Assembly: GCF_900090205.1 (NCBI RefSeq)
Contig: NZ_LT607802.1
Span: 3,555,279 to 3,619,278, forward strand
Length of the DNA: 64,000 bases
Reading direction: 5' to 3'
From: Vogesella sp. LIG4
GTDB taxonomy: Bacteria > Pseudomonadota > Gammaproteobacteria > Burkholderiales > Chromobacteriaceae
This document shows, in pieces, positions 482 through 63,792 of the stretch. The position numbers were made by a program, and so were the translations under genes. Positions within the stretch are counted from its first letter, which is position 1, and every line of letters starts with the position of its first letter. The notes below the pieces were generated by a model that saw only the letters and a program-made list of their open reading frames with translations, searched no databases and was not told where the DNA came from.

Positions 482-587
482 CGGCCTTCGCCTTGCCGAT
501 ATGGCTTGTCCGCTCTGCCGACCTTTACCCCTGCGCAAGCGTAAAGGTTGGCCGCATCAGGCGCGTATTTGTCCGCACCGTGCTGTT

Positions 588-1502
588 TCAAGCAAGCGGC
601 AAAGTTTGATCGCTACTGGTGCCCAGCCTGCCTTGCGCAAGCAGCCACTCGAATACAAGGGCGACGATCTCTGTTCGCGGCTTGCCTTCCACCCGCGAAA
701 TCCACCAGGTCACCCCCGGCAGACGTGGATAGCCCGCAAGAATTTCGAGCTTTCCTGTCTGCAAGCTGCTTTCAACAACCAGCTTGGAAAGCAGCGCGAT
801 ACCTCGTCCACGCTCCACGGCGTCAAGCACCAGGCGCTGATCATCATAGATGGCCCGCTGCTTGAATCCGGCCAGGCGCGTGCGAAATAGCGAGCCAGTC
901 AGCTCATCCGTCAGTTGTTGTTCCAGACAAATCAGCCCGGTGTGTTGCGGATGCTGGTCAATTGGCAGCTCCCCCAGGGCCTGACACACCTCGGCTTTGG
1001 CAACCATCACCCATTCATCCTGGAACAGCGGCACTTCATGCAAGCCCGGCTGCTGGATCGGCGGCGAACCGATAGAGATATCCACATTGATTTCGTCGAT
1101 GTAGTGAACCGACTCATCTGTCGACAGCAAGGGGCAGAGGGCGGGCAATTCTTGCTGCAACTGCTCCAGCCGGGGTTGCAACCAGCCATGCAGGATTGGC
1201 GCCGGGCCGACCAGGACAACCAGCCCGGGGTCCAGGTAAGTCGCTATCCGGCCAAGGCCGCTGCGCAGGGACTCCACCGAGCGCTGCACACTTCGTTGCA
1301 GCACTTCGCCGGCCACGGTCAACTCCACACCCCGCCCTTTGCGGCGGAACAGCTGCAGGCCAATCTGTTCCTCCAGCTGCTGAACCTGATGGCTGATAGC
1401 CGACTGCGACAGACAGAGTTCCTCGGCCGCGCGGGCAAAGCTGCCAAGCCTGGCCGCCGCTTCAAACCCCATCAGCAACTTGAGCGAAGGAATTCGGTTC
1501 AT
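588..1502 (-). CDS. LysR-family transcriptional regulator of the agmatine genes
   Basis: A 304-residue LysR regulator. The N-terminal winged helix-turn-helix is clear at about residues 10-65 (GSFARAAEELCLSQSAISHQ, then VQQLEEQIG), followed by a periplasmic-binding-like effector domain to the end. I start at the ATG at 1502 because it gives the usual LysR N-terminus (MNRIPSLKLL); an in-frame TTG at 1532 would add ten residues and has an AGGA only one base away. It is transcribed away from the agmatine deiminase gene at 1609, the normal layout for a LysR protein controlling its neighbour. The effector is not visible in sequence; agmatine, N-carbamoylputrescine or putrescine are guesses from context. 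Confidence 0.85.
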   Translation of the reverse strand: MNRIPSLKLLMGFEAAARLGSFARAAEELCLSQSAISHQVQQLEEQIGLQLFRRKGRGVELTVAGEVLQRSVQRSVESLRSGLGRIATYLDPGLVVLVGPAPILHGWLQPRLEQLQQELPALCPLLSTDESVHYIDEINVDISIGSPPIQQPGLHEVPLFQDEWVMVAKAEVCQALGELPIDQHPQHTGLICLEQQLTDELTGSLFRTRLAGFKQRAIYDDQRLVLDAVERGRGIALLSKLVVESSLQTGKLEILAGYPRLPGVTWWISRVEGKPRTEIVALVFEWLLAQGRLGTSSDQTLPLA

Positions 1503-1517
1503 TGCACACAACTCATG

Positions 1518-1568
1518 AGAAAACTTGGTCAATCCTACTAATAAACATCATTTTTCATCAAGTTTTCT
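1518..1568. promoter_or_regulatory. Inverted repeat between lysR and agmatine deiminase, candidate operator
   Basis: AGAAAACTTG at 1518-1527 and CAAGTTTTCT at 1559-1568 are perfect 10-base inverted copies whose centres are 41 bases (about four helical turns) apart, in the space between the divergent lysR and aguA genes. LysR proteins often bind paired sites in such spacers. Binding itself is inferred. Confidence 0.5.
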
Positions 1569-1608
1569 AAGCATTAAAGTGAGCTCATCACAAGAGGAGG
1601 ACTGAACG

Positions 1609-2643: not shown

Positions 2644-2673
2644 TCAACACCCTTTGCAAGCGAGAAAGCAACC

Positions 2674-3591
2674 ATGACCGCAAGAACCATTACCGTAGCA
2701 TCCGTTCAGATGGCGTCCGGCAGCTGGACCATCGAACACAATATGGACCGGGCAGAACACCTGATCCGGCAAGCGGCGGCACAAGGCGCCAACCTGATCC
2801 TGTGCCCGGAACTATTCATGATGCCCTACTTCTGCCTGGACCAGAACGTGGACCATCTGCGCTGGGCCGAACCGTTGGAGGGCAATCCGCGTATTGCCCG
2901 TTTTGCCGCCCTGGCGGGCGAACTGGGCATCGTGCTGCCGATCGGCTTCTTCGAGCGCGCCGGCAACGCAGCCTACAACTCGATTGCCGTTGCCGATGCC
3001 GATGGCAAGGTGCTGGGGGTATACCGCAAGACCCATATCCCGGATGGCCCCGGCTATACCGAGAAATTCTATTTCACTCCCGGCGATACCGGCTTCAAGG
3101 TATGGGATACCCGATTCGGCAAGATCGGTATCGGCATCTGCTGGGACCAGTGGTACCCGGAAACCGCCCGTAGCCTGGCCCTGATGGGCGCAGAAGTGCT
3201 GTGCTTCCCGACCATCATCGGTTCGGAACCCTTCAGCAGCGAATTCGATTCGTCCGGCCATTGGCAGCGCACCATGCAAGGCCATGCCGCCGCCAATATG
3301 GTGCCGGTCGTTGCGGCCAACCGTATCGGCCAGGAAGCCGGCCTTGGCAATGGCAACTCCAGGCAGCAAGGGCTTACCGGTACTTTCTATGGCTCCAGCT
3401 TCATTGCCGACCATACCGGCGCCAAGGTGGCGGAGGCCAACCGCAGCGATGAAACCATTTTGCTGCACACCTTCGATCTGGACGCCATCCGCGCCGCACG
3501 CCAATGCTGGGGCTTTTTCCGTGACCGCCGTCCGGAAATGTACCGCACCCTGCTGACCAGCGACGGTCAGTCGTCCTGTTATCAAAAATAA
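2674..3591 (+). CDS. aguB: N-carbamoylputrescine amidase
   Basis: A 305-residue nitrilase-superfamily enzyme that converts N-carbamoylputrescine to putrescine, CO2 and ammonia. The Glu-Lys-Cys triad is visible in CPELFMMPYF (about residue 46), YRKTHIPDGPGY (about 120) and GICWDQWYPE (about 159). The WDQWYPE and GSEPFSSEFDS segments are typical of AguB rather than other nitrilases. It follows aguA with a short gap and AGCGAGAAAG upstream as ribosome site. Together with the upstream gene it completes the two-step route from agmatine to putrescine. One copy of the recurrent 10-mer (3312-3321, reverse orientation) sits inside the coding sequence. Confidence 0.93.
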   Translation: MTARTITVASVQMASGSWTIEHNMDRAEHLIRQAAAQGANLILCPELFMMPYFCLDQNVDHLRWAEPLEGNPRIARFAALAGELGIVLPIGFFERAGNAAYNSIAVADADGKVLGVYRKTHIPDGPGYTEKFYFTPGDTGFKVWDTRFGKIGIGICWDQWYPETARSLALMGAEVLCFPTIIGSEPFSSEFDSSGHWQRTMQGHAAANMVPVVAANRIGQEAGLGNGNSRQQGLTGTFYGSSFIADHTGAKVAEANRSDETILLHTFDLDAIRAARQCWGFFRDRRPEMYRTLLTSDGQSSCYQK

Positions 3592-4769: not shown

Positions 4770-4947
4770 GGGCGGGCTGATGGCCACGCAAAAGACCATG
4801 CAGGCTAGCCTGCGGCCAACCCTCTCCCGCCTTGCTGTCGCCGACGGCAAGCGCGCTGATGCCCTCAGCGCTGATGTCCTCAGCATTCAAGCCGTCCACA
4901 GCTTCTGAGCCGGGGAAGCTTCACCCCGCGCCACTTCTCCCTTGGTA

Positions 4948-6012: not shown

Positions 6013-6143
6013 CTCTGCGCGTAACAGTTTGCGAACCCGTCAGGCGCTGCCCCGGCAGTGGGCAGCGCCTGGTGCGCATGTACGGCAAGACAGGCCGGAG
6101 CCACAAGCACGCCGGCGCAGCCCCTGCTACAAGGTTGGCCGCA

Positions 6144-6569
6144 TCAGGCCTCGGCGCCTGCCGCGCGCAGCATGGCGCGCACCGGCTCGGGTATCGACAC
6201 CGTCTTGCCGGCCTGATAGTCCACCCACACCAGCGTGGCCTCGCCCACCGCATACACGGCAGTGGGGTCACCTTCCTTGTAGAAGTGGTGCCGCAGCTTG
6301 AGGCTGCTGCGGCCAACCTTTTCCACTTCGATGGTGATCGCCACCGTGGCCGGGTAGGTCAGCTCGCGCTTGTAGCTGCAGCTGGTATGCCCCAGCACCG
6401 GGCCGATGCCGGCGGGGTCGATGGGGAAGCCGGCGGCTTCCAGCCACTCCACGCGGATCTGCTCCATGTAGCGGAAGTAATAGGTATTGTTGAGATGCCC
6501 GACCGCATCCATGTCGCCCCAGCGCATGGTGATGATGCGGGTATCCAGCAGCGGTAGTTGTTTTTCCAT
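6144..6569 (-). CDS. Acyl-CoA thioesterase, 4HBT hot-dog fold
   Basis: A 141-residue single hot-dog protein. The 4-hydroxybenzoyl-CoA thioesterase signature is clear near the N-terminus: MRWGDMDAVGHLNNTYYFRY, with the catalytic Asp in GDMD and HxNN. Such proteins (YbgC/FadM type) hydrolyse short or medium acyl-CoA esters in the cytoplasm. It has no operon partner on its strand. Two recurrent 10-mers lie at its edges: 6134-6143 directly after the stop and 6308-6317 inside the gene. The intergenic stretch 6013-6133 shows nothing else. Confidence 0.87.
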   Translation of the reverse strand: MEKQLPLLDTRIITMRWGDMDAVGHLNNTYYFRYMEQIRVEWLEAAGFPIDPAGIGPVLGHTSCSYKRELTYPATVAITIEVEKVGRSSLKLRHHFYKEGDPTAVYAVGEATLVWVDYQAGKTVSIPEPVRAMLRAAGAEA

Positions 6570-7687: not shown

Positions 7688-8152
7688 CTAGGCAGCCGGC
7701 CGCGCCAGCTGCCGGCACAGCCCGCGCCGGCCGGCTTCCATCAGGTAGTCGTGATTCCACTCGAACAGCGGCCGCGCCAGCGGCGCCAGCCAGTTCATCC
7801 AGCGTCGGGTGGTACGCACCTGCCACAGGTAGCGCACCACGGTGGCGCCCTGCTCGCGGCTGAACTGCCAGCAGCCCACGCCTTCGACCTCGCCGCTGGC
7901 CCGCCCCACCAGCAGCGCCAGCGGCTGTACCGCGGTGATGTGCACGTCGAAACTCAGCCGATACGGCAGCGCGCCCTTCCACACGTAGCGCTGGCGCGCC
8001 CCCACGCCGGCGGCGTCGCCGGGCGCCAGTTCCAGCACTTCCTCCACGCCCTGCCACCACTGCGGCCAACTGCGCACGTCGTAGATCACGCGCCACACCT
8101 CCTCCAGCGGCGCATCGAAACGCCACTGGGTGCAGAAGCGGTATTCGGCCAT
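7688..8152 (-). CDS. SRPBCC (START/polyketide cyclase-like) domain protein
   Basis: A 154-residue single-domain protein. The start-type fold is suggested by the N-terminal strand YRFCTQWRFDAPLEEVWRVI followed by YDVRSWPQWWQGVEEVLEL, the classic SRPBCC opening, and by the long C-terminal helix. These domains bind hydrophobic ligands in a deep cavity; the ligand is unknown. The ATG at 8152 is preferred because GAGG lies about 8 bases upstream; a GTG at 8161 is also in frame. It lies 10 bases from the next gene upstream, so it ends a probable four-gene unit (9638 to 7688). Confidence 0.8.
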   Translation of the reverse strand: MAEYRFCTQWRFDAPLEEVWRVIYDVRSWPQWWQGVEEVLELAPGDAAGVGARQRYVWKGALPYRLSFDVHITAVQPLALLVGRASGEVEGVGCWQFSREQGATVVRYLWQVRTTRRWMNWLAPLARPLFEWNHDYLMEAGRRGLCRQLARPAA

Positions 8153-8840: not shown

Positions 8841-9257
8841 CTACTCCACCACTTCCAGCACACCTTCCATGCCGCGCGCGCGGTGGCTGGCGAAGAACAG
8901 CAGCTTGTGCGCGCAGTAGTAGGGATAGCTCCCCACCACCGTGGGCACGAAGCGGACCAGCTTGGGCTGTGCGGCCAACTCGGTGCGGATGTTCATGCCG
9001 GCCTGCGGCGCTTCCAGCACGAAGCTGTGCGGAATCAGCCCCGACTCCATCTGCAGCGACAACTCCACCGGCACCCCGGCGCGCACGATGATGTGGGCGG
9101 GGTGGAAGAAATAACTGCCGCCCACCACCTGCACACGCTGCACGCCGTCGCCATCCACCTTGGCGCGGTAGGGCTCATCGCCGGCCCGCGCCCCTGCCGT
9201 AACAGTCAGCAGCGCCAGCAGCAACAGGCCGCGCCAGCTCAGGCAGTTTCCATCCAT
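8841..9257 (-). CDS. Secreted cupredoxin-domain protein
   Basis: A 138-residue protein with an N-terminal signal peptide (WRGLLLLALLTVTAGARA) and one cupredoxin barrel. Copper-ligand candidates are visible: His in IPHSFVLEAP, Cys and His in YYCAHKLLFF, and Met in ARGMEGVLEV. It may carry electrons or bind copper in the periplasm. The ATG at 9257 has GGGAGG five bases before it; a GTG at 9263 is also in frame. It lies between two other exported proteins on the same strand, which suggests a common envelope role. Confidence 0.82.
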   Translation of the reverse strand: MDGNCLSWRGLLLLALLTVTAGARAGDEPYRAKVDGDGVQRVQVVGGSYFFHPAHIIVRAGVPVELSLQMESGLIPHSFVLEAPQAGMNIRTELAAQPKLVRFVPTVVGSYPYYCAHKLLFFASHRARGMEGVLEVVE

Positions 9258-12007: not shown

Positions 12008-12031
12008 TGGTTGGCCGCAAGCTGCCCCACG

Positions 12032-12835
12032 TCAGGCGCCGATGAAATCCGCCAGCGCCCGCCACATGAACGGCGGGTTGGCATACATAGGAAAGTGGCC
12101 GCACGCCGGCACCTCGGCCAACCGTACGCCGTGGCGGCGGATGTGCGCCAGGTAGCTCAGGCCGGCGTTCTGCTCGCCATACATGAACATCTTGCGGCAA
12201 GGCAGCGACAGGAAGCGCGTCATCAGCTCGCCGTGATCCGACAGCGCCACCATGGATTCGAAGATGCCGCGCACCGCGCCGGCGCGCACCTTGTGCCGCA
12301 GGTTGGCCGCATACAGCGCACTGGACCACGCCGGCGCCTGATAGGTACGGGCGATGAAATCGTCGAAGAAGGCCTGCACATCCGGGTTGGCATGCTCGAC
12401 GATCTGCCGGCTCAAAAAGCAGTCCTCCGGCGCGATATTGCCCTCGATATTGCAGAAGCTGATAACGCGGCCCGGCAACTGCGACGCCAGCAGCAAGGCG
12501 GTGAGCCCGCCCATGGAGTGTCCCACCAGGTGGAATTTGTCCACCCGGTAGTGCTGCAGCACCCGCAGCGCGGTGCCAAGCAGCAAGGGTATCGACACCC
12601 TAGTCAGGTCGCTGCAGCCGCTGTCGCCACAGCCCGGCGCATCGTAGGCGATGAGCGGATGCCCGTCGAAGGCGGCGTGCCGCACCATGTCGGCGTAGTC
12701 CTCCTTGCTGGAGCCGAAGCCGTGCAGAAACAGGATGGGCGCCTTGTCGCCAGGGCGATGGAGGGCAGCCAGATCCAGCGCCACGCCATCGATTTCGAAT
12801 GCCAGCCGCTGGCTGGCGAGTTGCTTTGTCGTCAT
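12032..12835 (-). CDS. Alpha/beta hydrolase
   Basis: A 267-residue serine hydrolase fold protein. LFLHGFGSSKEDY is the oxyanion loop, GHSMGGLTALL carries the nucleophilic Ser (about residue 105), and ACGHFPMYANP holds the catalytic His near the C-terminus. There is no signal peptide, so it is cytosolic. The substrate is unknown; members of this shape cleave esters or C-C bonds of small ring-fission products. It stands alone, convergent with chrA. Two recurrent 10-mers (12302-12311 inside and 12858-12867 upstream) mark it as part of the older backbone. Confidence 0.85.
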   Translation of the reverse strand: MTTKQLASQRLAFEIDGVALDLAALHRPGDKAPILFLHGFGSSKEDYADMVRHAAFDGHPLIAYDAPGCGDSGCSDLTRVSIPLLLGTALRVLQHYRVDKFHLVGHSMGGLTALLLASQLPGRVISFCNIEGNIAPEDCFLSRQIVEHANPDVQAFFDDFIARTYQAPAWSSALYAANLRHKVRAGAVRGIFESMVALSDHGELMTRFLSLPCRKMFMYGEQNAGLSYLAHIRRHGVRLAEVPACGHFPMYANPPFMWRALADFIGA

Positions 12836-12893
12836 ATGCAGTTCACTGAGTAAAGTGTGCGGCCAACCTTGCAGGCAGGCCGCAACGGGTGGC

Positions 12894-14116: not shown

Positions 14117-14758
14117 TCATACCCTCTCGCGCCAGGCAGCCAGGCCCATCAGCTCCAGGGTGGTCGCCCCCTGCGTCAGCTGGCTCATCATCATGCTTTC
14201 CTTGTCGGCGCGCGCTTCTCCGGCCTGCAGCGTACGCGCCGCATCCACCGCCGGGATGATCACCACACCGTCGTCGTCCGCCACCAGCAGGTCGCCGGCA
14301 GCCACCGGCGCGCCGCCGAAGATCAGCGGCTGGCCCACTGCCGGCGCACTGGCCTTCACCGTGCCGCGCACCGATACGCCACGGGCAAATACCGGGAAGC
14401 GTCGCTTGGCGATGGCGGCGATGTCGCGCACGCCGCCGTTGATCACCAGGCCGGCAAGGCCGGCCGCCTCCGCCGCCACGGTCAGCACCTCGCCCCAGTA
14501 GCCGGCGATGAAGCCGGCGGCATCCACCACCAGCACGCTGCCGCGCGGCGCGCGCTCCAGCGCAATGTGGATGGCCAGGTTGTCGCCGGGCGAGCACTGC
14601 AGCGGGTAGGCCGGCGCAGCGATGAAGGCGCCGGGCCAGATGCTGCGGATCTGCGGGTCCACCGCGCAAGGTTGGCCGCATGCCTCGTACAGGGTGGCGC
14701 TACCCAGCTGGCGGCAGCGCGCCGCCAGCGCCGGGTCGGTAAACAGTTGCTCCATCAT
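14117..14758 (-). CDS. RraA/HMG-aldolase-like protein (third in operon)
   Basis: A 213-residue member of the RraA-like family, which includes 4-hydroxy-4-methyl-2-oxoglutarate aldolase and oxaloacetate decarboxylase as well as RNase E inhibitors. The active region is visible as GEVLTVAAEAAGLAGL then VINGGVRD at about residues 90-112. In known aldolases the pattern is Asp-X20-Arg-Asp; here the first residue is Glu, unlike its two neighbours. The stop overlaps the next gene. It shares the operon with two paralogues, so it probably has a different substrate from them rather than being redundant. Confidence 0.85.
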   Translation of the reverse strand: MMEQLFTDPALAARCRQLGSATLYEACGQPCAVDPQIRSIWPGAFIAAPAYPLQCSPGDNLAIHIALERAPRGSVLVVDAAGFIAGYWGEVLTVAAEAAGLAGLVINGGVRDIAAIAKRRFPVFARGVSVRGTVKASAPAVGQPLIFGGAPVAAGDLLVADDDGVVIIPAVDAARTLQAGEARADKESMMMSQLTQGATTLELMGLAAWRERV

Positions 14759-17507: not shown

Positions 17508-18455
17508 CTAGCGGCGGCTGGCCAGCAGTACGCCGCCGATCACCAGCACGGTGCCGGCCAGCTGCGGCAGCGATACCGGCTCATGCAGCAGCCACCAGCC
17601 AAAGAAAATGGTCAGCGCCGGGCCCAGCGTGCCGATCAGCACGGTACGCGCCGCACCCAGGTGGCGGATGGCGGTGGACTGCCAGAAGATGGGCAGCATG
17701 GTGGAAAACAGCGCCATGCCCAGGCTGTAACCGTACACCGGCAGCGGCAGCTGCAGCACCTGCAACGGGCGCGACAGCACGAAGTGCAGCGTCACCGCCG
17801 CGGTGGCGGTGAGGATGGCCAGGATGGAAAAACGCAGCGAACCCAGCCGCTGGATGGCCAGCTCGGAGCCGGCGCTGTACAGCGCATACAGCACCGCGCA
17901 GCCGAACACGAAGCCGGCGCCGATCAGCACGCTCTGCAATTCGCGGCTCTGGCTGGCGTCGTGCACGAAGGCAATGGCGATGCCGCCATAGGACAGCGCC
18001 GCAGCCAGTAGCATGCGCCCTTCCGCCTTGCGCCCCAGGAACAGCACGCCTATCAGGATGGTAAGCGTGGGATAGGTGAACAGGATCAAGCGCTCCAGCC
18101 CGGCGGAGATGTATTGCAGGCCGTAGAAATCGAGCATGCTGGAACCGTAGTAACCGGCCACGCCCAGCATGAGCAGCAGGCCGACATCCCTTGCGGCCAA
18201 CCTTGGCATGTCCCGCAGCACCGGCAGCGCCGCCAGCAGTACAAACGGCAGGCACAGCACCATGCGCAGGGTGAGCAGGGTTACCGCATCCACCGTGGCC
18301 GCGGCGTAGGCCAGTTTGACGAAGATGGCCTTGAAGGAAAAACCGAATGCCGCCAGCAGGGCAAACATGACGCCGCGTCGTGGCGCGGCCTGTACCGTAT
18401 TCAATTTTCGACTTTCGTGATCAGACCCCGCCATGGTCTTTGCCGGCGCCGGCAT
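17508..18455 (-). CDS. EamA/DMT-family inner-membrane transporter
   Basis: A 315-residue protein with ten predicted membrane helices in two EamA repeats (MFALLAAFGFSFKAIFVKLA in the first, IGAGFVFGCAVLYALYS in the second) and the ending GTVLVIGGVLLASRR. Such carriers export amino acids, metabolites or drugs; the substrate is unknown. Start is uncertain: ATGs at 18455 and 18434 are both in frame and neither has a clear ribosome site. It precedes a VOC gene and lies near the RraA operon, but regulation in common is not visible. A recurrent 10-mer lies inside (18192-18201). Confidence 0.82.
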   Translation of the reverse strand: MPAPAKTMAGSDHESRKLNTVQAAPRRGVMFALLAAFGFSFKAIFVKLAYAAATVDAVTLLTLRMVLCLPFVLLAALPVLRDMPRLAARDVGLLLMLGVAGYYGSSMLDFYGLQYISAGLERLILFTYPTLTILIGVLFLGRKAEGRMLLAAALSYGGIAIAFVHDASQSRELQSVLIGAGFVFGCAVLYALYSAGSELAIQRLGSLRFSILAILTATAAVTLHFVLSRPLQVLQLPLPVYGYSLGMALFSTMLPIFWQSTAIRHLGAARTVLIGTLGPALTIFFGWWLLHEPVSLPQLAGTVLVIGGVLLASRR

Positions 18456-19439: not shown

Positions 19440-20618
19440 ATGCACACGCCCGACCAGCTTCCCGCTACCCTGCCCCGCCCCGACTACCTGCTAAGCCTGG
19501 CCAACCTGGCGGCGCGCCTGCATGGCCGCCACGGCGTGCCGCCGCTGCAGCATGCGCTGCTGGACGGGCTGGAAGAAATCGAAACCGTGATCCTGCTGCT
19601 GATCGACGGCATGGGCGAGGCACAGCTGGCCGAGCTGGCGCCGGATGGCTGGCTGGCGCATCAGCCGCGCACCCGGCTGCACTCGGTGTTCCCCAGCACC
19701 ACCACGGCGGCAATCACCACCCTGCTCACCGGCGCGGCGCCGTCCGAGCACGGCCTGCTGTCCTGGCACGTGTGGGCGCCGCAGGCCGGCTGCATCGCCA
19801 CGCCGCTGCCACTGCGCGAGCACTGGCGTGCGGAAGGCGAAGCGCTGCCGGACCAGACGCTGGCCGCCGCGCTGTACACCCAGCCTTCGGCACTGGCCGG
19901 CGGCGACCGCCGCCACTACGTGCTGCAGCCCGAGTACATTGCCGATTCGCAGTACAGCCGCCACCACGGCGGCGCGGCCGAGGCGCTGCCCTGGCACGGC
20001 TACGATGCGCTGTTCGCGCAGCTGGCGGCACTGGCACGCCAGCCGGGGCGCAAGTTCATCTATGCCTATATTCCGGACCTGGATTCGCTGATGCATCACA
20101 AGGGCACCCGCCACCCCAGGGCAGCGCAGCTGCTGCAGCGTATCGATGCGCACTGCGCCGCGCTGGCGGTCACGCTACCCGCCAGTGCGCGGCTGCTGGT
20201 CACCGCCGACCACGGCCAGCTGGACATTCCGCCGGAAAAGCTGCTGTTCATCAACGACTACCCCGAGCTGGCCGCCATGCTGGCGCGGCCGCTGTGGGGC
20301 GAGCCGCGGGTGGCGTTCTGCACGCCGCGGCCGGAATGCCGCGATGCCTTCCCAGCCTCCATCGAGGCGGCACTGGGGCATGTGCTGTGGGTATTGAAGG
20401 CGGAAGACGTGCTGGCGGCGCAGTGGTTCGGCCCGGCGCCGCAGCACCCGCAGTTGGCCGCAAGGGCCGGCGACTACGTGCTGCTGCTGAAGGATGACTG
20501 GGGCCTGCTGCAGATGGTGGATGACAGCGAGCGGCCGCGGCTGATCGGCAACCACGGCGGCCTGAGCGCCGCCGAGATGCAGATTCCGCTGATTGTGTAT
20601 CAGGGCACGGCCGGCTGA
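19440..20618 (+). CDS. Alkaline phosphatase-superfamily phosphodiesterase/nucleotide pyrophosphatase
   Basis: A 392-residue protein of the type I phosphodiesterase/nucleotide pyrophosphatase fold. Metal and catalytic residues can be followed: Asp in LLLIDGMGEAQ, nucleophilic Thr in SVFPSTTTAA, AYIPDLDSLMHH, VTADHGQLD and GNHGGLSAAEM. No signal peptide is seen, so it probably acts in the cytoplasm on a phosphodiester or phosphonate. The start could also be the ATG at 19398. No operon partner. One recurrent 10-mer is inside (20453-20462). The following 147 bases to 20765 contain no gene. Confidence 0.82.
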   Translation: MHTPDQLPATLPRPDYLLSLANLAARLHGRHGVPPLQHALLDGLEEIETVILLLIDGMGEAQLAELAPDGWLAHQPRTRLHSVFPSTTTAAITTLLTGAAPSEHGLLSWHVWAPQAGCIATPLPLREHWRAEGEALPDQTLAAALYTQPSALAGGDRRHYVLQPEYIADSQYSRHHGGAAEALPWHGYDALFAQLAALARQPGRKFIYAYIPDLDSLMHHKGTRHPRAAQLLQRIDAHCAALAVTLPASARLLVTADHGQLDIPPEKLLFINDYPELAAMLARPLWGEPRVAFCTPRPECRDAFPASIEAALGHVLWVLKAEDVLAAQWFGPAPQHPQLAARAGDYVLLLKDDWGLLQMVDDSERPRLIGNHGGLSAAEMQIPLIVYQGTAG

Positions 20619-20765: not shown

Positions 20766-21761
20766 TCACAGTACCGGCGTGCTCTCCTGCTGCGGCCAAC
20801 GTTGCTGCCATTCGCGCCAGGCCTCGCGGCTGAGCGTGGCCGGAAACACCGCGCGGCGGCGCTGCTGCAGGTAGCCCAGCAGCACTTCGGCATAGTCCAG
20901 CTGCTGCCCGCCCTGCTCCGGCGGCGTCAGCACTCCCATGCGATTCACCCAGACCGTATCCTGCCGCGCCTGGATGTATTCCTCCGGGCCATCCAGCACC
21001 TGCTGCAGCAGGAGCAGCTTGCCGCTGAGCGAGCCCGGTTGGCCACCGGCCAGCAGTTCGCGCTCCACCTCATCCAGCCGCTGCTCGGCCTGCTCGCGGC
21101 TCAGGTTGCTGCCCAGGCTCAGCGCCTCGGCATTGAGCAGGCTGCTGCCGCTCTTCAGCTGCAACTGCAGCGCCTGGCGTTCGATCTGCAGCAGCTTGTG
21201 CCGCGCCTCCAGCTGCTGCATGCCCTGCCCCAGGCTGGCGCACCACACCGCAAACGCATGCTCGCGCCCCTTGCGCACCGCTTCCTCGCGGGTGCTGCCG
21301 GCGGCAACGAAGCGGTGGCGGTCGAAGCTCAGCACCGTCTGCGGCACGTCCTTGCGAATGGAGCCATCCGGCAGCAGCACGCTGCCGAGGCGGTGCGATT
21401 CGGTAGGCTGCATCGACAGCATCAGCTGCACGGTGTCGGCGGACGACGGGTGGGAAAAATACTCGTGCAGCGATTCGCTGCCGGCCAGGATGTCACTGAG
21501 CGACTGCGGCGAGGCAAACAGCAGGCCGACGCGGCGGTCCAGGCTGTAGCCGGGCACGCTCAGGTCCAGCGAATCCGGCAGGTGGTCGCACAGGTCGTGC
21601 ATGTACTGCAGGGTGCGTTTCACCCCGCGGCGCAGCTTGCGGCGGCCGTCCGGCAGCAGGCGGATGCGCGGGTCAACCTCCTCCACCAGCAGCTCCATCG
21701 CCGCTTCCACGTTTTGCCGGGTAATTGCCTGGGCATTGCCCAGCAGCCATTCCCACATCAT
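20766..21761 (-). CDS. Hypothetical coiled-coil protein
   Basis: A 331-residue soluble protein that I do not recognise. Residues 1-60 are helical and basic ([20 protein letters not shown]). A middle part contains [19 protein letters not shown] text and a [13 protein letters not shown] strand. Residues about 190-260 have heptad-like spacing ([20 protein letters not shown], then [20 protein letters not shown]), a likely coiled coil. The C-terminus ends in an Arg/Gln-rich tail. It is divergent from a chemoreceptor gene. A recurrent 10-mer (20791-20800) is near the 3' end. The length and codon pattern support a real gene. Confidence 0.7.
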
Positions 21762-23252: not shown

Positions 23253-23284
23253 CCTTGCGGCCAACCCCATAGTTGGCCGCAAGG
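23253..23284. terminator. Terminator formed by an inverted pair of the recurrent word
   Basis: A 13-bp stem: 23253-23265 (CCTTGCGGCCAAC) pairs with 23272-23284 (GTTGGCCGCAAGG) around a six-base loop. It lies between the convergent ends of the chemoreceptor gene and the GMC oxidoreductase gene and contains two full copies of the 10-mer. A T-rich tail is weak on both sides. Confidence 0.65.
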
Positions 23285-24887: not shown

Positions 24888-25381
24888 AGCAATCCTTTCA
24901 TCATCGCCGGCAGGCGGTAGTCGATGGCCAGCCAGCTGGCTTCGGCGCCATACCAGCCGGCGTACAGCAGGCTGTGCAGCGCCTGGTAGCCGCTGCGCAG
25001 CAGCACGAAGCGGCTGTGGCGCCAGCGCTGCAGAAAGCCCTGCATCGCGGCGGCATCGGCCTGTTGCCACGGGGTGGCCACGCCGGCCAGCAGCCGGCGC
25101 CCCGGCAGGCTGTGCAGCAGGTCGAACAGCTGACGCAGCTCGGCCTGCACTGCAGGCGGCAGGCCGGCAATGGCGCTCAGCACATTGTCCGCCAGCGACA
25201 ATGCGCCACTGGCCGGTAAGGGGCCCAGCATGCCGCGCCCCAGCGCGGCGATCAGCTCGCGGTCGGCAAGGTTGGCCGCAAAGCCCGGTGCCGGCAGCGT
25301 CCGTGCCAGCCGCCCGCCCAGCACCAGCGCCACGCCGCCCAGCAGCCCGGTGCGGATCAGCTGCCGCCGGCTCAGCTTCAT
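24884..25381 (-). CDS. Tat-signal small protein, likely partner of the GMC oxidoreductase
   Basis: A 165-residue protein starting with a twin-arginine signal (SRRQLIRTGLLGGVALVLGG). The rest is helical with FDLLHSLPGRRLLAGVATPW and SRFVLLRSGYQALHSLLYAG. Small Tat proteins of this size next to GMC dehydrogenases often act as an accessory or chaperone subunit that carries the flavoprotein across the membrane; this is inference from context. It overlaps the genes on both sides by four bases. Confidence 0.75.
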   Translation of the reverse strand: MKLSRRQLIRTGLLGGVALVLGGRLARTLPAPGFAANLADRELIAALGRGMLGPLPASGALSLADNVLSAIAGLPPAVQAELRQLFDLLHSLPGRRLLAGVATPWQQADAAAMQGFLQRWRHSRFVLLRSGYQALHSLLYAGWYGAEASWLAIDYRLPAMMKGLL

Positions 25382-39556: not shown

Positions 39557-39787
39557 TCAATAGGTGTAATCGGGCCGGCGCAGCAGATCCGTCATGCGCG
39601 GAACGATCAGCGTCTCGTAGACCTGTTGTTGCCACAGAGCTGGCTCAACAGGCTGCAGATCCACCGACACGGCCCCGGTAAGGCATGACAGTTCCTGTTG
39701 CAGCAACTGTGTGAGCGATTGCTGGATGCGCTCCAGGTTGGCCGCAGGGATGTCGGCCTTAAAACAATGAATGACAACATGTGGCAT
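39557..39787 (-). CDS. Tautomerase-family protein (4-oxalocrotonate tautomerase-like)
   Basis: A 76-residue protein starting Met-Pro; Pro1 becomes the N-terminal catalytic base in 4-oxalocrotonate tautomerase and PptA-like enzymes. PHVVIHCFKADIPAANLERI and SVDLQPVEPALWQQQVYE fit the beta-alpha-beta hexamer fold. It lies 15 bases after the indigoidine synthetase gene and ends 64 bases before the MFS gene. A role in isomerising an imine/enol intermediate of the pigment is possible and is inference only. One recurrent 10-mer is inside (39737-39746). Confidence 0.8.
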   Translation of the reverse strand: MPHVVIHCFKADIPAANLERIQQSLTQLLQQELSCLTGAVSVDLQPVEPALWQQQVYETLIVPRMTDLLRRPDYTY

Positions 39788-43716: not shown

Positions 43717-44475
43717 TTAGCAACAGCCGAACAAGCGACCAAAGCCGTCAAATTGATCGCCAACGCCACTCATTCTCATCGCGTGCCAATATAAAACCGT
43801 GTTGTTCGCGATAACTGGCTTGCCAGTCCACTGTTCTGCGGTATGCGCGAAGCTGCTCATCGGCACATTGGTACCCACTTGGACAATGGCCTCGACACCC
43901 GGCGCATTGGCCGTTTCCACCGCTTGCCGCAGGTCTTGCAGGCTGACCTCTGCAATTCGGGATGGGCTCTGCCCCCCCAGATTGGCCAGTGCCACTACCT
44001 CATAGCCCTTGTCCACAAAGAACTGCGACACGGCCTCATTCCCAATAGCGGTATACGGGGAAATCAGGCCGATGCGGCGCACATTTCCCAGGCGAGCCAG
44101 AGCTTCTTCAATGGCATCGGCGCTGGTGGTGATCCCGATGCCGCCCGCAGCGTCCTGCAAGTGCCCCAGCATCTGCTGATGCCCCTCTACCCCTCTCCAG
44201 TAAGCATCCGGCGAGACAGCCACGATGATGCGGTTGAGCTGGCAATCTTTCAGGGTCTTGATTGCCGGTTCGGTCGATCTGCGCATGGCATGGATCACAC
44301 TGTTGAAGCCTGGCTCTGCAGTAAGCGCCTCATCCACGATGACCATGCGGCCAACATGGTTGGTCACGCCAAACGGGCGCATGCTGTCCATTTCCGGCTG
44401 GGCAGAAGTGTTAGTCGACGGGATGACTACGCCTATACGCAAACGGTGGCCGAGAACTTTGGGTGTATTGCTCAT
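43717..44475 (-). CDS. Asp/Glu racemase-superfamily protein (maleate isomerase-like) without the usual Cys pair
   Basis: A 252-residue protein of the Asp/Glu racemase, maleate isomerase and arylmalonate decarboxylase superfamily. GVVIPSTNTSAQPEMD is the N-terminal maleate-isomerase-like signature; IGLISPYTAIGNEAV is the middle hinge; VGTNVPMSSFAH is where the second catalytic Cys normally stands. The first Cys position reads AVSPDAYW. The only Cys residues are in KDCQ and the last two of the chain, so both catalytic thiols appear to be missing. It lies 50 bases upstream of the synthetase gene and is probably its operon leader. It may act by another mechanism or have only a binding role. Confidence 0.82.
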   Translation of the reverse strand: MSNTPKVLGHRLRIGVVIPSTNTSAQPEMDSMRPFGVTNHVGRMVIVDEALTAEPGFNSVIHAMRRSTEPAIKTLKDCQLNRIIVAVSPDAYWRGVEGHQQMLGHLQDAAGGIGITTSADAIEEALARLGNVRRIGLISPYTAIGNEAVSQFFVDKGYEVVALANLGGQSPSRIAEVSLQDLRQAVETANAPGVEAIVQVGTNVPMSSFAHTAEQWTGKPVIANNTVLYWHAMRMSGVGDQFDGFGRLFGCC

Positions 44476-52114: not shown

Positions 52115-52123
52115 GAGGGCTCC

Positions 52124-56106: not shown

Positions 56107-57288
56107 TCAAACAGGCATCAAGCGCTGACCGCGGCCGACCAGGGAGGCGCCGAGCAACAGCAGAACCATCCCGCCCAGAAACGTCGCGTGGATCGAGAGG
56201 TGATCCAGCAGCGCGCCACCCAGCGCACCGCCCAGCAAAATTGCCAGCTGGATAGCGGCCACCAGCAAGCCGCCACCGGCCTCCTGCGCATCTGGCAGGC
56301 TGTGCGCCAGCCAGGCGGACCAACTCACCGGAATCGCGGCGTTCAATCCACCCCAGATCAGCAGACAAAGTGCTGCCCACACTGGCACGCTGCCGGTAAG
56401 CAACAAGGCCAGTGTGGCCAGGGCCAGCAATAGCGGCAGCCCGCCCAGCAAGCGATACAGATGCGATGTCAGTAGACGGCTGGCCAAGTGTGTGCCGGCA
56501 AAACCCGCCACACCCAGCACAAATAGCAGCAGTGAGAGCTGTGGCAGCGAAACGTGGGTTTGTGATTCGAGGAACGGACGGAAGTAGGTAAAGCTGGTAA
56601 AAGCACCCGCAAAAGTCAACATCACCGCCGGCATGGCGACCCGCACGTGAGAGCGTGCCCACAAGCTACGCAGCCTGAGGTTGGCCGCAGTCTGCCGGGC
56701 GGGCATGGGTGGCAGGCTACGCCATTGCCACCACAGGTTCAGGGCCACCAGCGGCACCATCAGCCAGAACACACCGCGCCACCCCACTAGACCGCCGAGA
56801 TAGCTGCCCAGCGGTGCGGCCAACGTGGTAGCCACAGCGTTGCCGGTATACAGAGCCCCCAGTGCAGACGGCACGGCTGCCGCCGGCACCAACCGGCTTA
56901 CTGTTGCCGTGGCCAACGACCAAAAGCCGCCAACCACGACTCCCAGCAGCGCCCGTGCCAACATCAGTACGCCAAAGTTGTGTGCCAGTGCCATACAAGC
57001 CAGCGAAAGCAGCATCAGACCGGTCAGGCCCAGTAGCACGTGGCGCCGATCCATGCCCCGGCATACACGGGTAATCAGCAGGCTCGCCAGCACGGCAAAA
57101 AAGCCGGAAATGGCAATGGCTTGTCCGGCCATGCCTTCGCTGGCACCCAGGTCAGCGGCTAGTGGCGTCAACAGGCTGACCGGCATGAACTCAGCAGCAA
57201 TCAGCATCGCCACGCAGAAAGACATCGACAAGACAGCGCTACGATGCGGTGCCGCGCTGGAGGCAGAAGCGCTAGAAAAATTAGACAT
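56107..57288 (-). CDS. MFS efflux transporter, DHA1 family
   Basis: A 393-residue inner-membrane carrier with twelve helices. MSFCVAMLIAAEFMPVSLLT then PLAADLGASEGMAGQAIAIS is the opening of the NepI/PbuE/AraJ type, and ARALLGVVVGGFWSLATATV is motif C. It likely exports a purine, sugar or drug-like compound. It lies 110 bases after the exported hydrolase gene on the same strand. Recurrent 10-mers inside at 56680 and 56815 mark where the backbone resumes after a long desert. Confidence 0.88.
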   Translation of the reverse strand: MSNFSSASASSAAPHRSAVLSMSFCVAMLIAAEFMPVSLLTPLAADLGASEGMAGQAIAISGFFAVLASLLITRVCRGMDRRHVLLGLTGLMLLSLACMALAHNFGVLMLARALLGVVVGGFWSLATATVSRLVPAAAVPSALGALYTGNAVATTLAAPLGSYLGGLVGWRGVFWLMVPLVALNLWWQWRSLPPMPARQTAANLRLRSLWARSHVRVAMPAVMLTFAGAFTSFTYFRPFLESQTHVSLPQLSLLLFVLGVAGFAGTHLASRLLTSHLYRLLGGLPLLLALATLALLLTGSVPVWAALCLLIWGGLNAAIPVSWSAWLAHSLPDAQEAGGGLLVAAIQLAILLGGALGGALLDHLSIHATFLGGMVLLLLGASLVGRGQRLMPV

Positions 57289-57398: not shown

Positions 57399-58481
57399 TT
57401 ACTTCAGGTTCTTGCCGAAGAAGTCAGCAATGGCATCAAACGGAATGCGGTCGACACGATCGTACAAATCGACATGGTTGGCGCCCTTGACGATCAGCAG
57501 TTCCTTCGGTTCGGCTGCCGCGGCGTACGCAGTTTCGGCAAAGTAGCGGGAATGGGCCAACTCGCCATGCACGAATAGGATGGGGCGCGGCGAGATTTCC
57601 TTGATGTAGCTAAGGATGGGCATGTTCATGAATGACAGCGGCGTCGTCACCGTCCACGCATTGCCCGAGTTGACAGCCCGCGGATGGTAGCCACGCGGAG
57701 TCATATAGTAGTCGGCGTAGTCCAGCAGGAACTGCGGTTCGCCCCCCTTCAACTTGTTGTAGGCAGGCTGGTAGGCGGGCTGGCCGTTGGCCGCATCTTC
57801 CCAGCGCTGGCGGCTCAGTTGTTCAAGCGTCTTACGGCGTTGTTCCGGCGTAACGCTGTCGTTGTAGCCCCTGGACATGACGCGGGTCATATCGTACATG
57901 GTGCTGGCCACCACGGCTTTGACACGCTTGTCGACTGCCACCGCATTCAGCGCCATGCCACCCCAGCCACAAATGCCAATGGCACCGATGCGCTCCCGAT
58001 CGACGTAGGACTGCAGACCGATGAAGTCCACTGCCGCCATGAAGTCCTCGGTATTGATATCGGGTGATGCCACATTTCGTGGTTCGCCACCGCTCTCGCC
58101 GGTGTAGGAACCATCGAACGCCAGTGTGACAAAGCCACGCTCGGCCATGGATTGCGCATACAAGCCTGAAGCTTGTTCCTTCACCGCACCAAACGGGCCG
58201 CCCACCACAAGTGCGGCTAGACGCAGGCCTTGGCGGTTCTTTGGCAGGTATAGATCAGCAGCCAGGGTGATACCGTAGCGGTTTTTGAAGGTGACTTTTT
58301 GGTGGTCTACCTTGTCGCTCTTGGCAAAGGTCTTATCCCATTCTTGCGTCAGTTGCATGGCATGCTCCTCTGTTGCGAGAGGAGCGGCCACGGCACGCAC
58401 AGCATGGCTGCTGATGGCTAGCGCCATACCCGCAGCCATGGCGCTCAGGATGAAGCGCTTTCTGGATATTGTGATGCCCAT
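57399..58481 (-). CDS. Exported alpha/beta hydrolase, dienelactone hydrolase/YcjY-like
   Basis: A 360-residue enzyme with an N-terminal signal (SRKRFILSAMAAGMALAISS; a Tat-like twin-basic start is possible). The hydrolase part has VTFKNRYGITLAADLYLPKN, AFDGSYTGESGGEPRN, the nucleophile elbow GAIGICGWGGMALNA with Cys in place of Ser, and a C-terminal Asp/His region (ILFVHGELAHSRYF then VKGANHVDLYD). Cys nucleophiles are normal in dienelactone hydrolases. GGAGG precedes the ATG at 58481. It begins the unit with the MFS pump. The gap 58482-58714 shows nothing else. A recurrent 10-mer lies inside (57786-57795). Confidence 0.87.
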   Translation of the reverse strand: MGITISRKRFILSAMAAGMALAISSHAVRAVAAPLATEEHAMQLTQEWDKTFAKSDKVDHQKVTFKNRYGITLAADLYLPKNRQGLRLAALVVGGPFGAVKEQASGLYAQSMAERGFVTLAFDGSYTGESGGEPRNVASPDINTEDFMAAVDFIGLQSYVDRERIGAIGICGWGGMALNAVAVDKRVKAVVASTMYDMTRVMSRGYNDSVTPEQRRKTLEQLSRQRWEDAANGQPAYQPAYNKLKGGEPQFLLDYADYYMTPRGYHPRAVNSGNAWTVTTPLSFMNMPILSYIKEISPRPILFVHGELAHSRYFAETAYAAAAEPKELLIVKGANHVDLYDRVDRIPFDAIADFFGKNLK

Positions 58482-61763: not shown

Positions 61764-62150
61764 GATTGGACTCCGGAGTGAAAATCCATTATGGCACTGC
61801 CCCATTTTCATATTGGGTGTTAGGGGTCGCCCTGCGCATTAACTTCGCCCAAGGCCTGCTACTGTGGGCCTTCCCCTTAAGTCGGTTCGGCATCGAAGCG
61901 AGAAGTTGCGAAAGTGCCAAGAACAGTGTGCTGCAGCCTTGCGCAGCCAAGTACAGATATCGACGGCTCACGGGTCAAAACCGGACTGGTTTAGATATGT
62001 ACCATCGGCAGCTCCGGCCGAGGATCCTACCGATGGGCATGGTGATCAGCCAGCTGATCGGCCGAAGCGGCCTTATTGGCTGGATGGATTAATCGACGGC
62101 TTTACGGGTCTTTCCGGCCATGGGGGGGGTGCTTACAAGATTAGAGCGAT
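61764..62150. other. Intergenic gap with a diverged REP-like copy
   Basis: No gene is seen in these 387 bases. From 62017 to 62073 GGCCGAGGATCC...GATCGGCCGAAGCGGCC is a diverged relative of the repeat at 60777. The remainder is AT-richer than the surrounding genes and has several short frames only. Confidence 0.45.
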
Positions 62151-63677
62151 TCAGCCAGATTTTCGCCGAACCACTTTGGCGAGAGCGGGGTTGGCACGAG
62201 CTTGCAGAAACTGCACCAGCAGCGGTACAGGGCGGCCTGTAGCACCTTTATCTTTTCCCGTTCGTGTAGCAGTACCGGCAATGTCCAAGTGCGCCCAATC
62301 GTATGCTTTGGCGTAGCGTGAAAGGAAGCACGCGGCCGTAATACTGCCAGCCGGCCGGCCACCAAAGTTCACCATATCGGCGAACGGGCTCTGGAGTTGC
62401 TCGTGGTACTCCTCGTTCAGTGGCATATGCCAGGCCCGGTCCCCCACTACCTCGCCAGCCTCAAGTAATTCGCGCGCCAGGGCATCATGATTACTGAACA
62501 GGCCAGACAGTACATGGCCTAAAGCAACGATGCAGGCGCCAGTCAGTGTGGCCACATCGATTACAGCGGCCGGGGTAAAGCGTTCGGCGTAGGTCAGCGC
62601 ATCACATAGGATCAACCGGCCTTCGGCATCCGTGTCAAGAATCTCGATTGTCTGGCCCGACATCGAGGTTACGATGTCGCCCGGCTTGATTGCATGCCCG
62701 GAAGGCATATTTTCGCATGCAGGCACGATGGCCACGAGGTTGATCGGAAGCTTCATCTCGGCAACGGCACGAAAGGCGCCCAGGACAGCGGCAGCCCCGC
62801 ACATGTCGAATTTCATTTCGTCCATCGCCTCACCCGGCTTGAGCGAGATACCGCCAGTATCGAAAGTGATACCCTTGCCGATCAGTACCACCGGCCGCAC
62901 TTGCTTGTCCTTGGCTCCATAGTGTTTGAGCACTATCAGGTATGGTGGCTCGTCCGAACCTTGCGATACCGACAGAAACGCACCCATGCCGAGCGCCCGG
63001 ATCTCGCTTTCCCCAAGAATTTCAGCCTCGGCTCCCAGTTGGGTGGCCATTTCGCGCGCGCTTTCGGCAAGATAGGTTGGTGTGCATATATTGCCTGGCA
63101 GGTTGCCCATATCCTTGGCAAAGCGCATGCCACTGGCAATGGCAAGACCACGCGCCAAGCCTTTCACGCCTACAGCTAGGTCGGTACGGCGCGAAACGGT
63201 CAGCGTCAGTTTCCTGAGCGCACAGAGTGAATCATCGATCTTGCTTTTAAACCTGTCGAAGCGGTACATGACATCGAGCGTTGCCACTGTTGCCTGCTCG
63301 ATCATCCATTCCACGTTGTGCTTTTTGATAGTTATTTCGCTTAGATAGCTGACCGCCTCGCTGGCGGAGGTCTTTGCCAGTGACTTGACGGAGGCCCGAA
63401 TCACCTCACGATATTCCTTGGCTTGAAACTCTAACTCCTTCCCCAGGCCAACCAGCATTACCCGGTCGCACAAGGTGTTTGGCACTGCATGCAGCAGCAG
63501 AGTGCTGCCGAGCTTGCCTTCCATATCTCCGCATTTGAGTACGTCGCTGAGATAGCCATTGGCAGCGCGGTCTATTAGTGCAGCGGCAAAACTGAGCTTG
63601 CGCGCCTCATATACGCCGACAATCACGCAGGCCGTGCGTTGCTTGTCCGGGCTACCGCTTTTGATGCAGATATCCAT
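62151..63677 (-). CDS. pepA: Leucyl aminopeptidase (M17)
   Basis: A 508-residue manganese/zinc aminopeptidase. The N-terminal domain begins MDICIKSGSPDKQRTACVIV, typical of PepA; the M17 catalytic core has LIGKGITFDTGGISLKPG (metal Lys and Asp), DMCGAAAVLGAF, and DTDAEGRLILCDALTYAE, where the family usually has Asn first (NTDAEGRL). The C-terminal Arg/metal region VNFGGRPAGSITAACFL is present. It cleaves N-terminal residues and PepA also binds DNA in some bacteria. ATG at 63677 with GGAAA upstream; a longer frame to 63761 is less family-like. It has no 10-mer within and lies in the motif desert. Confidence 0.9.
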   Translation of the reverse strand: MDICIKSGSPDKQRTACVIVGVYEARKLSFAAALIDRAANGYLSDVLKCGDMEGKLGSTLLLHAVPNTLCDRVMLVGLGKELEFQAKEYREVIRASVKSLAKTSASEAVSYLSEITIKKHNVEWMIEQATVATLDVMYRFDRFKSKIDDSLCALRKLTLTVSRRTDLAVGVKGLARGLAIASGMRFAKDMGNLPGNICTPTYLAESAREMATQLGAEAEILGESEIRALGMGAFLSVSQGSDEPPYLIVLKHYGAKDKQVRPVVLIGKGITFDTGGISLKPGEAMDEMKFDMCGAAAVLGAFRAVAEMKLPINLVAIVPACENMPSGHAIKPGDIVTSMSGQTIEILDTDAEGRLILCDALTYAERFTPAAVIDVATLTGACIVALGHVLSGLFSNHDALARELLEAGEVVGDRAWHMPLNEEYHEQLQSPFADMVNFGGRPAGSITAACFLSRYAKAYDWAHLDIAGTATRTGKDKGATGRPVPLLVQFLQARANPALAKVVRRKSG

Positions 63678-63768
63678 GGGAAATTTCCGTAACTCGGGTG
63701 GCAGACTCAGTGACATTGAGTCGCGACCAATAGGCAAGAGCCACAATCTGGCGGGGTGCAACTAGCTC

Positions 63769-63792
63769 AGGTTGGCCGCATGCGGCCAACCT
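63769..63792. terminator. Palindrome of two full 10-mers, likely transcription terminator
   Basis: 63771-63780 (GTTGGCCGCA) and 63781-63790 (its inverse) are placed head to head, giving a perfect 24-base palindrome with the AG/CT flanks. A CTTTG tail follows on the plus strand. It lies between the PepA gene and the end of the permease gene. Confidence 0.7.

Follow-up and report, generated by a model that had tools for sequence, protein, structure and literature searches.

A putative DNA uptake sequence of Vogesella and its dialects among the Chromobacteriaceae

The 10-base word GTTGGCCGCA, extended at its 5' side to about AAG-GTTGGCCGCA, very probably serves Vogesella as its DNA uptake sequence; it would be one dialect of a system spanning the whole family, with an orthologue of the minor pilin ComP as its predicted receptor. 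The original prediction, made from a single window (the whole 64-kb stretch of DNA analysed), proposed the word as the candidate uptake signal of its lineage, and this reading gains support from the excess over Markov expectation, the spread beyond the window, the ComP-like pilin and the dialects described below. What one window could not reveal is that the system appears to be family-wide, with dialects and losses.

Abundance and placement of the word

The window holds 36 exact copies of GTTGGCCGCA, counting both strands (Table 1), against a mean of 0.58 and a maximum of 3 in 100 dinucleotide-preserving shuffles, in line with the predicted chance expectation of well under one. AAG lies directly 5' of the word in 12 of the 36 copies, as counted from the flank list. 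All 34 positions named in the original prediction are exact copies on one strand or the other, but its total fell short, the reverse-strand copies at 8061 and 8970 having been missed. Copies do occur both within and between genes and in both orientations, as had been claimed, with 21 in predicted genes and 15 outside according to a home-made gene caller.

Table 1. Copies of the uptake-like word in the window, located by exact match and placed with the home-made gene caller; arms of inverted pairs come additionally from a pair search.
Position	Strand	Placement
547..556	+	between genes
3312..3321	-	in predicted gene
4811..4820	-	between genes
6134..6143	+	at predicted gene start
6308..6317	-	in predicted gene
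8061..8070	-	in predicted gene; absent from original list
8970..8979	-	in predicted gene; absent from original list
12010..12019	+	between genes
12302..12311	+	in predicted gene
12858..12867	-	between genes
14671..14680	+	in predicted gene
18192..18201	-	in predicted gene
20453..20462	+	in predicted gene
20791..20800	-	in predicted gene
23256..23265	-	left arm of intergenic inverted pair
23272..23281	+	right arm of intergenic inverted pair
24846..24855	-	between genes
25271..25280	+	in predicted gene
26176..26185	+	in predicted gene
28109..28118	-	between genes
28399..28408	+	between genes
28838..28847	+	at predicted gene start
30941..30950	+	in predicted gene
31295..31304	+	in predicted gene
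32201..32210	-	between genes
33218..33227	+	in predicted gene
34342..34351	-	in predicted gene
35035..35044	+	in predicted gene
39737..39746	+	between genes
42367..42376	-	in predicted gene
44346..44355	-	in predicted gene
56680..56689	+	in predicted gene
56815..56824	-	in predicted gene
57786..57795	+	in predicted gene
63771..63780	+	left arm of abutting intergenic inverted pair
63781..63790	-	right arm of abutting intergenic inverted pair

The word is not confined to the window. The whole window genome carries it 2895 times (1458 forward and 1437 reverse), against 8 copies (4 and 4) of the reversed word taken as a control, and it recurs in other Vogesella genomes. Sampling 484 kb of this genome, we observe 335 copies where a third-order Markov model expects 3.7, an excess of ~90-fold. 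In this sample the 30 one-letter variants, pooled, stand at background (108 observed, 111 expected); one variant above it, GTTGGCCGCG (22 against 5.2 expected), counts against such sharpness. Conservation of the flanks tails off within ~3 bases on each side of the word. Density is 1.36 per kb between genes against 0.54 per kb within them, a difference of ~2.5-fold (genes called as above, in 484 kb of this genome), and 220 of the 335 copies lie wholly within predicted genes, in all six frames. A reading of the word as a product of coding bias was rejected on these frame counts.

Close pairs of the word in the same sample are inverted in 25 of 26 cases, and 16 of the 25 inverted pairs lack predicted coding sequence, as might befit an interspersed repeat that has spread, for instance a terminator element or a REP-like extragenic palindrome. 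Such an origin is nevertheless highly improbable, given that only 26 close pairs occur among the 335 copies, that most copies are spread through predicted genes in every frame, and that the flanks diverge so soon. Chi-like and KOPS-like motifs are also short, dense and sharp, and a polar chromosome-maintenance motif guiding recombination or segregation would have these traits in common with the word. We consider this very unlikely as well: the leading strand carries 172 of the 335 copies, that is, without replication bias (a hand sum guided by the sign of GC skew), the genome-wide strand counts show no bias either, the word is enriched between genes, its close pairs are inverted, and its spelling differs between genera of one family.

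Dialects and conservation within the family

Comparison of related genomes uncovered dialects of the same word. Each of the 13 Vogesella genomes holds 1871-2895 copies of GTTGGCCGCA, against 8-58 in the 48 remaining genomes of the family, while related genera spell the word GTTGGCCGAA or GTTGGCCGAG, one- or two-letter variants of the Vogesella form. In unsupervised word counts the same core ranks first among the 10-mers of five sampled groups (g5, g6, g7, g9 and g10); the sample of g4 came to ~120 kb rather than 140, one stretch having been read as N. Among the 61 family genomes, 23 bear the word in some dialect and 38 are word-less. One genome (G047) has it weakly, at 183 copies, and word counts found neither the word nor a variant in three genera, nor in a fourth bar one genome; their lack of it suggests that loss of the system is possible. 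A further spelling, GTTTGCCGAA, is in clear excess in G010 only (616 copies); it was rejected as the dialect of group g2, the first signal having come from one stretch of G010 pooled with G002. Applied as a positive control to nine genomes from a single genus, the same kind of search recovered the known neisserial DUS, with 247-4285 copies and at comparable density.

All four spellings found have CCG at +6 to +8. The 5' flank is semi-conserved in nine samples of the main words, with A at -2 in 49-81% and G the commonest letter at -1 in all nine; G010's second word (12 copies) has C and G equally often at -1. The ancestral spelling of the family word was probably AG-GTTGGCCGAA. The family tree is that of ComEC alone, in place of a concatenated tree rejected because it split genera and because some of the ORFs used as queries resembled antisense frames; a ComEC-family gene occurs in 59 of 61 family genomes, the two without a match being draft Vogesella genomes.

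The word is also kept between species. Twelve of 19 word sites are conserved between the window genome and a second species (G055), against 17% of control 10-mers, and word sites are kept more often than controls in 10 of 10 directed comparisons (56-89% against 15-72%), hardly more often in the closest species pair (6/7 and 6/8 against 72% and 68%). Together with the background level of one-letter variants, this retention fits continued upkeep of the word. Both observations speak against the word being a fossil, a former uptake signal out of use in living species, which we regard as improbable even though the absence in related genera suggests that loss occurs and the literature matches listed, judged by title and the start of the abstract, contain no report of natural transformation in Vogesella. 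In a 2025 paper on V. indigofera DNA was moved by conjugation, and 'natural transformation' and 'competen-' are absent from the available part of its text (PMC12826045). As regards scarcity in foreign DNA, one secondary contig has 0 copies in 20 kb, against 67 in 100 kb of the chromosome of the same genome, and genes in the lowest quartile of codon score are only slightly poorer in the word (0.41 against 0.46-0.69 per kb).

A ComP orthologue as predicted receptor

What could read the word? The original prediction pointed to ComP-like minor pilins, and such a pilin is present: an orthologue, recognised with a profile of Vogesella proteins, is encoded in all 23 word-bearing genomes. In the window genome the gene lies outside the window (G000:C1:1559002-1559418), beside aroB-aroK-pilQ, a neighbourhood that recurs in the Vogesella loci read and differs from that of Neisseria comP. 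The best PDB matches of the Vogesella profile and of two single sequences are neisserial ComP. In the pilin tree the ComP-like proteins of the family group with a neighbouring neisserial pilin as well as with neisserial ComP itself (split 97/86), and the 20 other family pilins in the tree lie outside this group; the tree is without three neisserial ComP-group loci (G224, G372, G286) and one second-group locus (G344) that gave no ORF by the pattern used, and without two ComP-group matches of G424, the second one of G315, and the second-group matches of G372 and G424. Profile, PDB searches and tree replaced the Pfam family ComP_DUS, which was rejected as a marker for being too broad, matching several pilins per genome; the window genome's ComP, at 23.8, falls short of the cut-off of 27.3, which two further pilins of the genome exceed.

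The orthologue is found in word-less genera too, so its presence alone predicts nothing. Its basic residues do follow the word: column 61 is K or R in 22 of 23 word-bearing genomes, 0 of 12 word-less ones and 6 of 7 Neisseriaceae, and column 101 in 19 of 23, 0 of 12 and 6 of 7, respectively, a match that is confounded by descent. The word-less rows are the 12 of 38 genomes whose loci were fetched, and the seven Neisseriaceae rows are those remaining. These columns give a short list of candidate receptor residues.

The family protein and Neisseria ComP (2m3k, 5hz7, 2nba) share the pilin class, an F/Y-K...W-P-x-L-P stretch and basic residues at two places, assigned here by inference to the alpha1-beta1 and beta1-beta2 loops, each of which is implicated in contact with DNA in N. 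subflava ComP (PMC4906244). The basic stripe of ComP is given as R78, K94 and K108 (PMC12061091); in an alignment judged by eye, the place of K94 is R in 13 of 13 Vogesella and that of R78 is rarely basic. The two C-terminal cysteines of the ComP-like proteins are invariant (24 of 24). Two disulphides form the DD region of ComP (PMC4906244), whereas none of 35 family sequences, aligned by eye, has a cysteine at the C76 column, so that the C76-C125 bond and a two-disulphide DD region are absent.

We infer from these sequence patterns that the word is bound by ComP and promotes DNA uptake, and that its spread is driven by uptake. The ComP-orthologous minor pilin would sit in a type IV pilus and bind free double-stranded DNA bearing the word, pilus retraction and ComEC would bring this DNA into the cell, and repeated import and recombination of word-bearing fragments would maintain the thousands of near-identical chromosomal copies. 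The uptake sequence could instead be read by a different minor pilin, such as the FimT/GspH-like one whose gene neighbours comP. In Vogesella this GspH-like gene directly adjoins comP; at 18 of 22 other loci a relative is found 2.4-6.4 kb away from comP, and FimT is reported to take part in DNA uptake during natural transformation (PMC8897410). The GspH-like gene, however, is present at loci with and without the word in their genomes, the basic residues of ComP vary along with the word, and the closest solved relative of the ComP-like pilin is the neisserial DUS receptor itself, which makes a reader other than ComP unlikely.

Relation to other uptake systems

Detailed knowledge of self-recognising DNA uptake comes from two families. 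The words described here resemble the neisserial DUS in being 10-mers preceded by two semi-conserved 5' bases (here A at -2 and, most commonly, G at -1; in the neisserial AG-DUS, A at -2 with G or T at -1; PMC3630211), in their hundreds to thousands of copies, lineage dialects and inverted pairs, and in the ComP relative that the genomes encode. AG-GTTGGCCGAA and AG-GCCGTCTGAA agree at 8 of 12 letters in register and differ at four, a likeness with chance odds, taken alone, of 0.7 to 4%. They differ in the core: the 5'-CTG-3' at +6 to +8 of neisserial dialects (PMC3630211) is missing from the family words, which have CCG. The family-wide system probably shares ancestry with the neisserial one, and the word itself may descend from a common ancestor with the DUS.

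Frye et al. 2013 saw no obvious DUS in the genomes of five relatives, two Chromobacterium included, and the published view is that the system is younger than the separation from Chromobacterium violaceum (PMC3630211). The original statement that no such word had been described for this group fits that source, and the full-text literature matches listed contain no report of one. We lean slightly towards a joint reading in which transformation guided by an uptake sequence and a ComP receptor is older than the divergence of Neisseriaceae and Chromobacteriaceae. CTG, the core thought essential, would be the spelling of one lineage and CCG that of the other, where the ComP that reads the DNA would have a tail with a single disulphide; four or more lineages, probably including Chromobacterium, would have lost the system, which would explain why it was taken for a neisserial invention. 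If true, this would revise the published view of its origin. An additional branch, set apart by its own core and dialects and including a two-dialect genome and repeated losses, would constitute a natural experiment on the co-change of a pilin and its DNA word, and gene deletion is already established in V. indigofera, with allelic exchange and an igiD deletion strain that lacks pigment (PMC12826045).

The A-to-C change at +9 that distinguishes the Vogesella word is also one of the two changes that set king3DUS apart from kingDUS. The USS of Pasteurellaceae is unrelated to the Vogesella word. Its genome pattern is of the same kind (PMC7811141), and a different minor pilin, ComN, is predicted to be its receptor (PMC12616744).

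Abundance and placement of the word in Vogesella

The proposal that the 10-base word GTTGGCCGCA is the uptake signal of this lineage agrees with its abundance both within and beyond the window. The window holds 36 copies against 0.58 expected, a number reached in none of 100 shuffles; all 34 copies of the original prediction are correct, and its total was too low, two having been overlooked (table). The host genome, a single contig of 4,147,242 bases in which the window spans 3555279-3619278, carries 1458 forward and 1437 reverse copies, as against only 4 and 4 of the reversed word used as a control. The excess also holds against a background model: 335 copies were observed in a 484-kb sample (the window and 21 stretches, about 12% of the host genome), where a third-order Markov model predicts 3.7. 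In the same sample the 30 one-letter variants together stay at background (108 observed, 111 expected), the most over-represented being GTTGGCCGCG (22 against 5.2), and AAG is favoured on the 5' flank, with 56, 54 and 55% at -3, -2 and -1; flank conservation tapers off within about three bases on both sides.

With genes predicted by a home-made codon-usage caller (408 genes, 84% coding), the density between genes is 1.36 per kb, falling to 0.54 inside them (p 2.5e-13). Genic copies lie in the gene's direction (116) and opposite to it (104), with all frames represented. Neighbouring pairs at most 40 bases apart are inverted in 25 of 26 cases, 16 of the 25 being free of predicted coding sequence. 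With the leading strand assigned from the sign of GC skew, it holds 172 of the 335 copies, so that the motif shows no polarity.

Features of the window
Position	Strand	Feature
8061		Overlooked copy of GTTGGCCGCA
8970		Overlooked copy of GTTGGCCGCA
21887-23137	-	Predicted long gene, no Pfam or NCBIfam match at E 0.001
28839-30335	+	Predicted long gene, no Pfam or NCBIfam match at E 0.001
39803-43573	-	Single-module non-ribosomal peptide synthetase, 1256 aa (adenylation, carrier, thioesterase); possibly igiD, an indigoidine synthase reported from Vogesella (PMC12826045)
44346-56680		Longest stretch without GTTGGCCGCA in sampled host DNA; lower GC, ordinary enzymes and regulators; foreign origin is not claimed
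52094-53335	+	Predicted long gene, no Pfam or NCBIfam match at E 0.001

The word is also kept between species. In DNA aligned from the window genome to G055, 12 of 19 copies are retained, against 17.3% of 9633 10-mers of equal G+C, and retention is ahead of such 10-mers in all ten directed Vogesella comparisons (56-89% against 15-72%), some of which are reciprocal and so non-independent; in the closest species pair it barely exceeds the control. The second contig of G057 (164,538 bases), probably a plasmid, has no copy in 20 kb, against 67 in 100 kb of the chromosome. Its G+C is lower, at 0.51.

Spellings and range of the word in Chromobacteriaceae

Sixty-one genomes from ten genera (g1-g10) of the family were compared. 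We take g1 to be Vogesella because loci of its genome G052 match Vogesella indigofera DSM 3303 at 100% identity across 3.4 kb, and g3 is probably Chromobacterium, a C. haemolyticum record being nearest to its genome G022 (77%) among the loci compared. GTTGGCCGCA reaches 1871-2895 copies in all 13 Vogesella genomes and 8-58 in the other 48. Unsupervised counts in samples of 40 to 464 kb place GTTGGCCGAG first among 10-mers in g5 and GTTGGCCGAA first in g6, g7, g9 and g10; the samples of g2 (G002), g3, g4 and g8 contained no comparable 10-mer. In whole genomes, GTTGGCCGAA numbers 1368 in G010, 579 in G036, 2168 in G037, 1245 in G038, 1851 in G045, 1104 in G046, 183 in G047 and 893 in G048, with at most 78 copies in the remaining family genomes, and GTTGGCCGAG numbers 1940 in G034 and 1590 in G035, with at most 165 elsewhere in the family. 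G010, of g2, combines two spellings, adding 616 copies of GTTTGCCGAA; in the other nine g2 genomes neither is comparably over-represented (GTTTGCCGAA 25-66, controls 4-22).

Word-bearing genomes thus number 23 of 61 (13 of Vogesella, G010, two each of g5 and g6, one each of g7 and g9, three of g10), and 38 are word-less (nine of g2, 19 of g3, four of g4, six of g8). The weakest bearer is G047 of g10, a draft assembly 84% complete, whose count compares with 893 and 1104 in two sister genomes; decay, a dialect shift or poor assembly are candidate readings. Two word-less g8 genomes, G040 and G043, show a mild excess of GTTGGCCGAG (92 and 85, reversed-word controls 21 and 17), perhaps a remnant; the word-less g3 genome G018 also reaches 67 against 19. 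Before the main word, A at -2 and G at -1 are commonest in nine of nine samples from seven lineages.

An even draw of 399 genomes across the order included 13 Chromobacteriaceae. Among the 386 outside the family, GTTGGCCGAA never exceeds 47 copies. The neisserial DUS, GCCGTCTGAA, numbers 247-4285 in nine genomes that share a single genus, which from the word and its ComP we take to be Neisseria. The 13 Chromobacteriaceae hold 2-14 copies, and no other genome of the draw exceeds 68. The counting method recovers the known neisserial DUS, and the density is comparable.

A ComP-like candidate receptor

Several pilins in each genome are hit by the Pfam ComP_DUS model; of these, one in each Vogesella genome carries F/Y-K...W-P-x-L-P and is the candidate for the ComP-like minor pilin sought. 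Searched against the PDB, a profile of nine such Vogesella proteins ranks two neisserial DUS receptor entries first, 2m3k (1.9e-11) and 5hz7; N. subflava ComP (2nba) comes fourth, behind a chain named Geopilin domain 1 protein. For one Vogesella sequence on its own, and for one from g10, the three ComP entries are the top three matches. The orthologue of word-less G017 likewise matches ComP best.

In a pilin tree of 70 rows, a branch (97/86) sets 35 family ComP-like pilins, seven of the neisserial ComP group and seven of a second neisserial group apart from 20 other family pilins and one further neisserial pilin. In neisserial G187 a second ComP-like gene lies directly upstream of comP, their starts 500 bases apart; this gene, a member of the second group, may, at a guess, be pilV. 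The two neisserial groups are weakly joined (87/57, or 89/80 without G147), which would mean duplication within Neisseriaceae. At the seven Vogesella loci examined, aroB-aroK-pilQ neighbours comP, and a GspH-like pilin gene abuts it. In 18 of 22 loci of other genera a relative of that pilin gene lies 2.4-6.4 kb from comP, and aroB-aroK-pilQ did not turn up within the stretch read. Against the Vogesella profile, all 23 word-bearing genomes score at least 90.5 bits and the 38 word-less at most 91.4, a pattern that partly reflects distance from Vogesella, on which the profile was built. ComEC-family genes occur in 59 of 61 family genomes and are weak evidence, being found also in 10 of 14 controls, E. 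coli included.

The residue comparison took ComP sequences from 23 word-bearing genomes, from 12 of the 38 word-less ones and from seven Neisseriaceae. K/R stands at alignment column 61 in 22, none and six of these, and at column 101 in 19, none and six; D at column 104 occurs in 22, one and none. Because the columns were chosen for differing and the sequences share descent, the p values of this comparison cannot be read literally. Among the Neisseriaceae only G147 lacks K/R at columns 61 and 101, and it has just two copies of GCCGTCTGAA itself. By hand count on the G103 protein the two columns correspond to K58 and R84 in the mature pilin, residues that would fall within the alpha1-beta1 and beta1-beta2 loops. 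N. subflava ComP is described as contacting DNA mainly through the beta1-beta2 loop and DD region, while of the alpha1-beta1 loop a small portion takes part (PMC4906244). The sequences suggest that word and candidate receptor change together.

History of the word and likeness to the neisserial DUS

Did the word arise once or repeatedly? In a midpoint-rooted tree of one gene, ComEC, from 34 family genomes (G045 on a long branch), the word-less genomes of g2, g3, g4 and g8 form separate groups amid word-bearing lineages, and well-supported branches require at least four changes. A single ancestral word, lost at least four times and respelled to CA in Vogesella and to AG in g5, is a simpler account than several independent inventions, because the ten letters of GTTGGCCGAA are identical in the distant lineages G010, g6, g7, g9 and g10. 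Frye et al. (PMC3630211) report that Laribacter, Lutiella, Pseudogulbenkiania and two Chromobacterium have no obvious DUS and that BLAST gave no ComP in C. violaceum, and conclude that the DUS system arose after the divergence from C. violaceum; our data suggest that this outgroup had lost the system. Among the full-text matches listed we found no description of an uptake word in Chromobacteriaceae; subscription papers and supplements fell beyond that scope, and an earlier description is possible.

Aligned in register, AG-GTTGGCCGAA and AG-GCCGTCTGAA are identical at 8 of 12 positions, a likeness that random words reach in 0.7% of cases in the same register and strand and in 3-4% when shifts and both strands are allowed; the functional core is CTG in the neisserial DUS, with CCG in its place in the family words. 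The likeness hints at shared ancestry without proving it; the kinship of the ComP proteins is the stronger argument. The A to C change at +9 in Vogesella matches one of the two changes described between kingDUS and king3DUS (PMC3630211).
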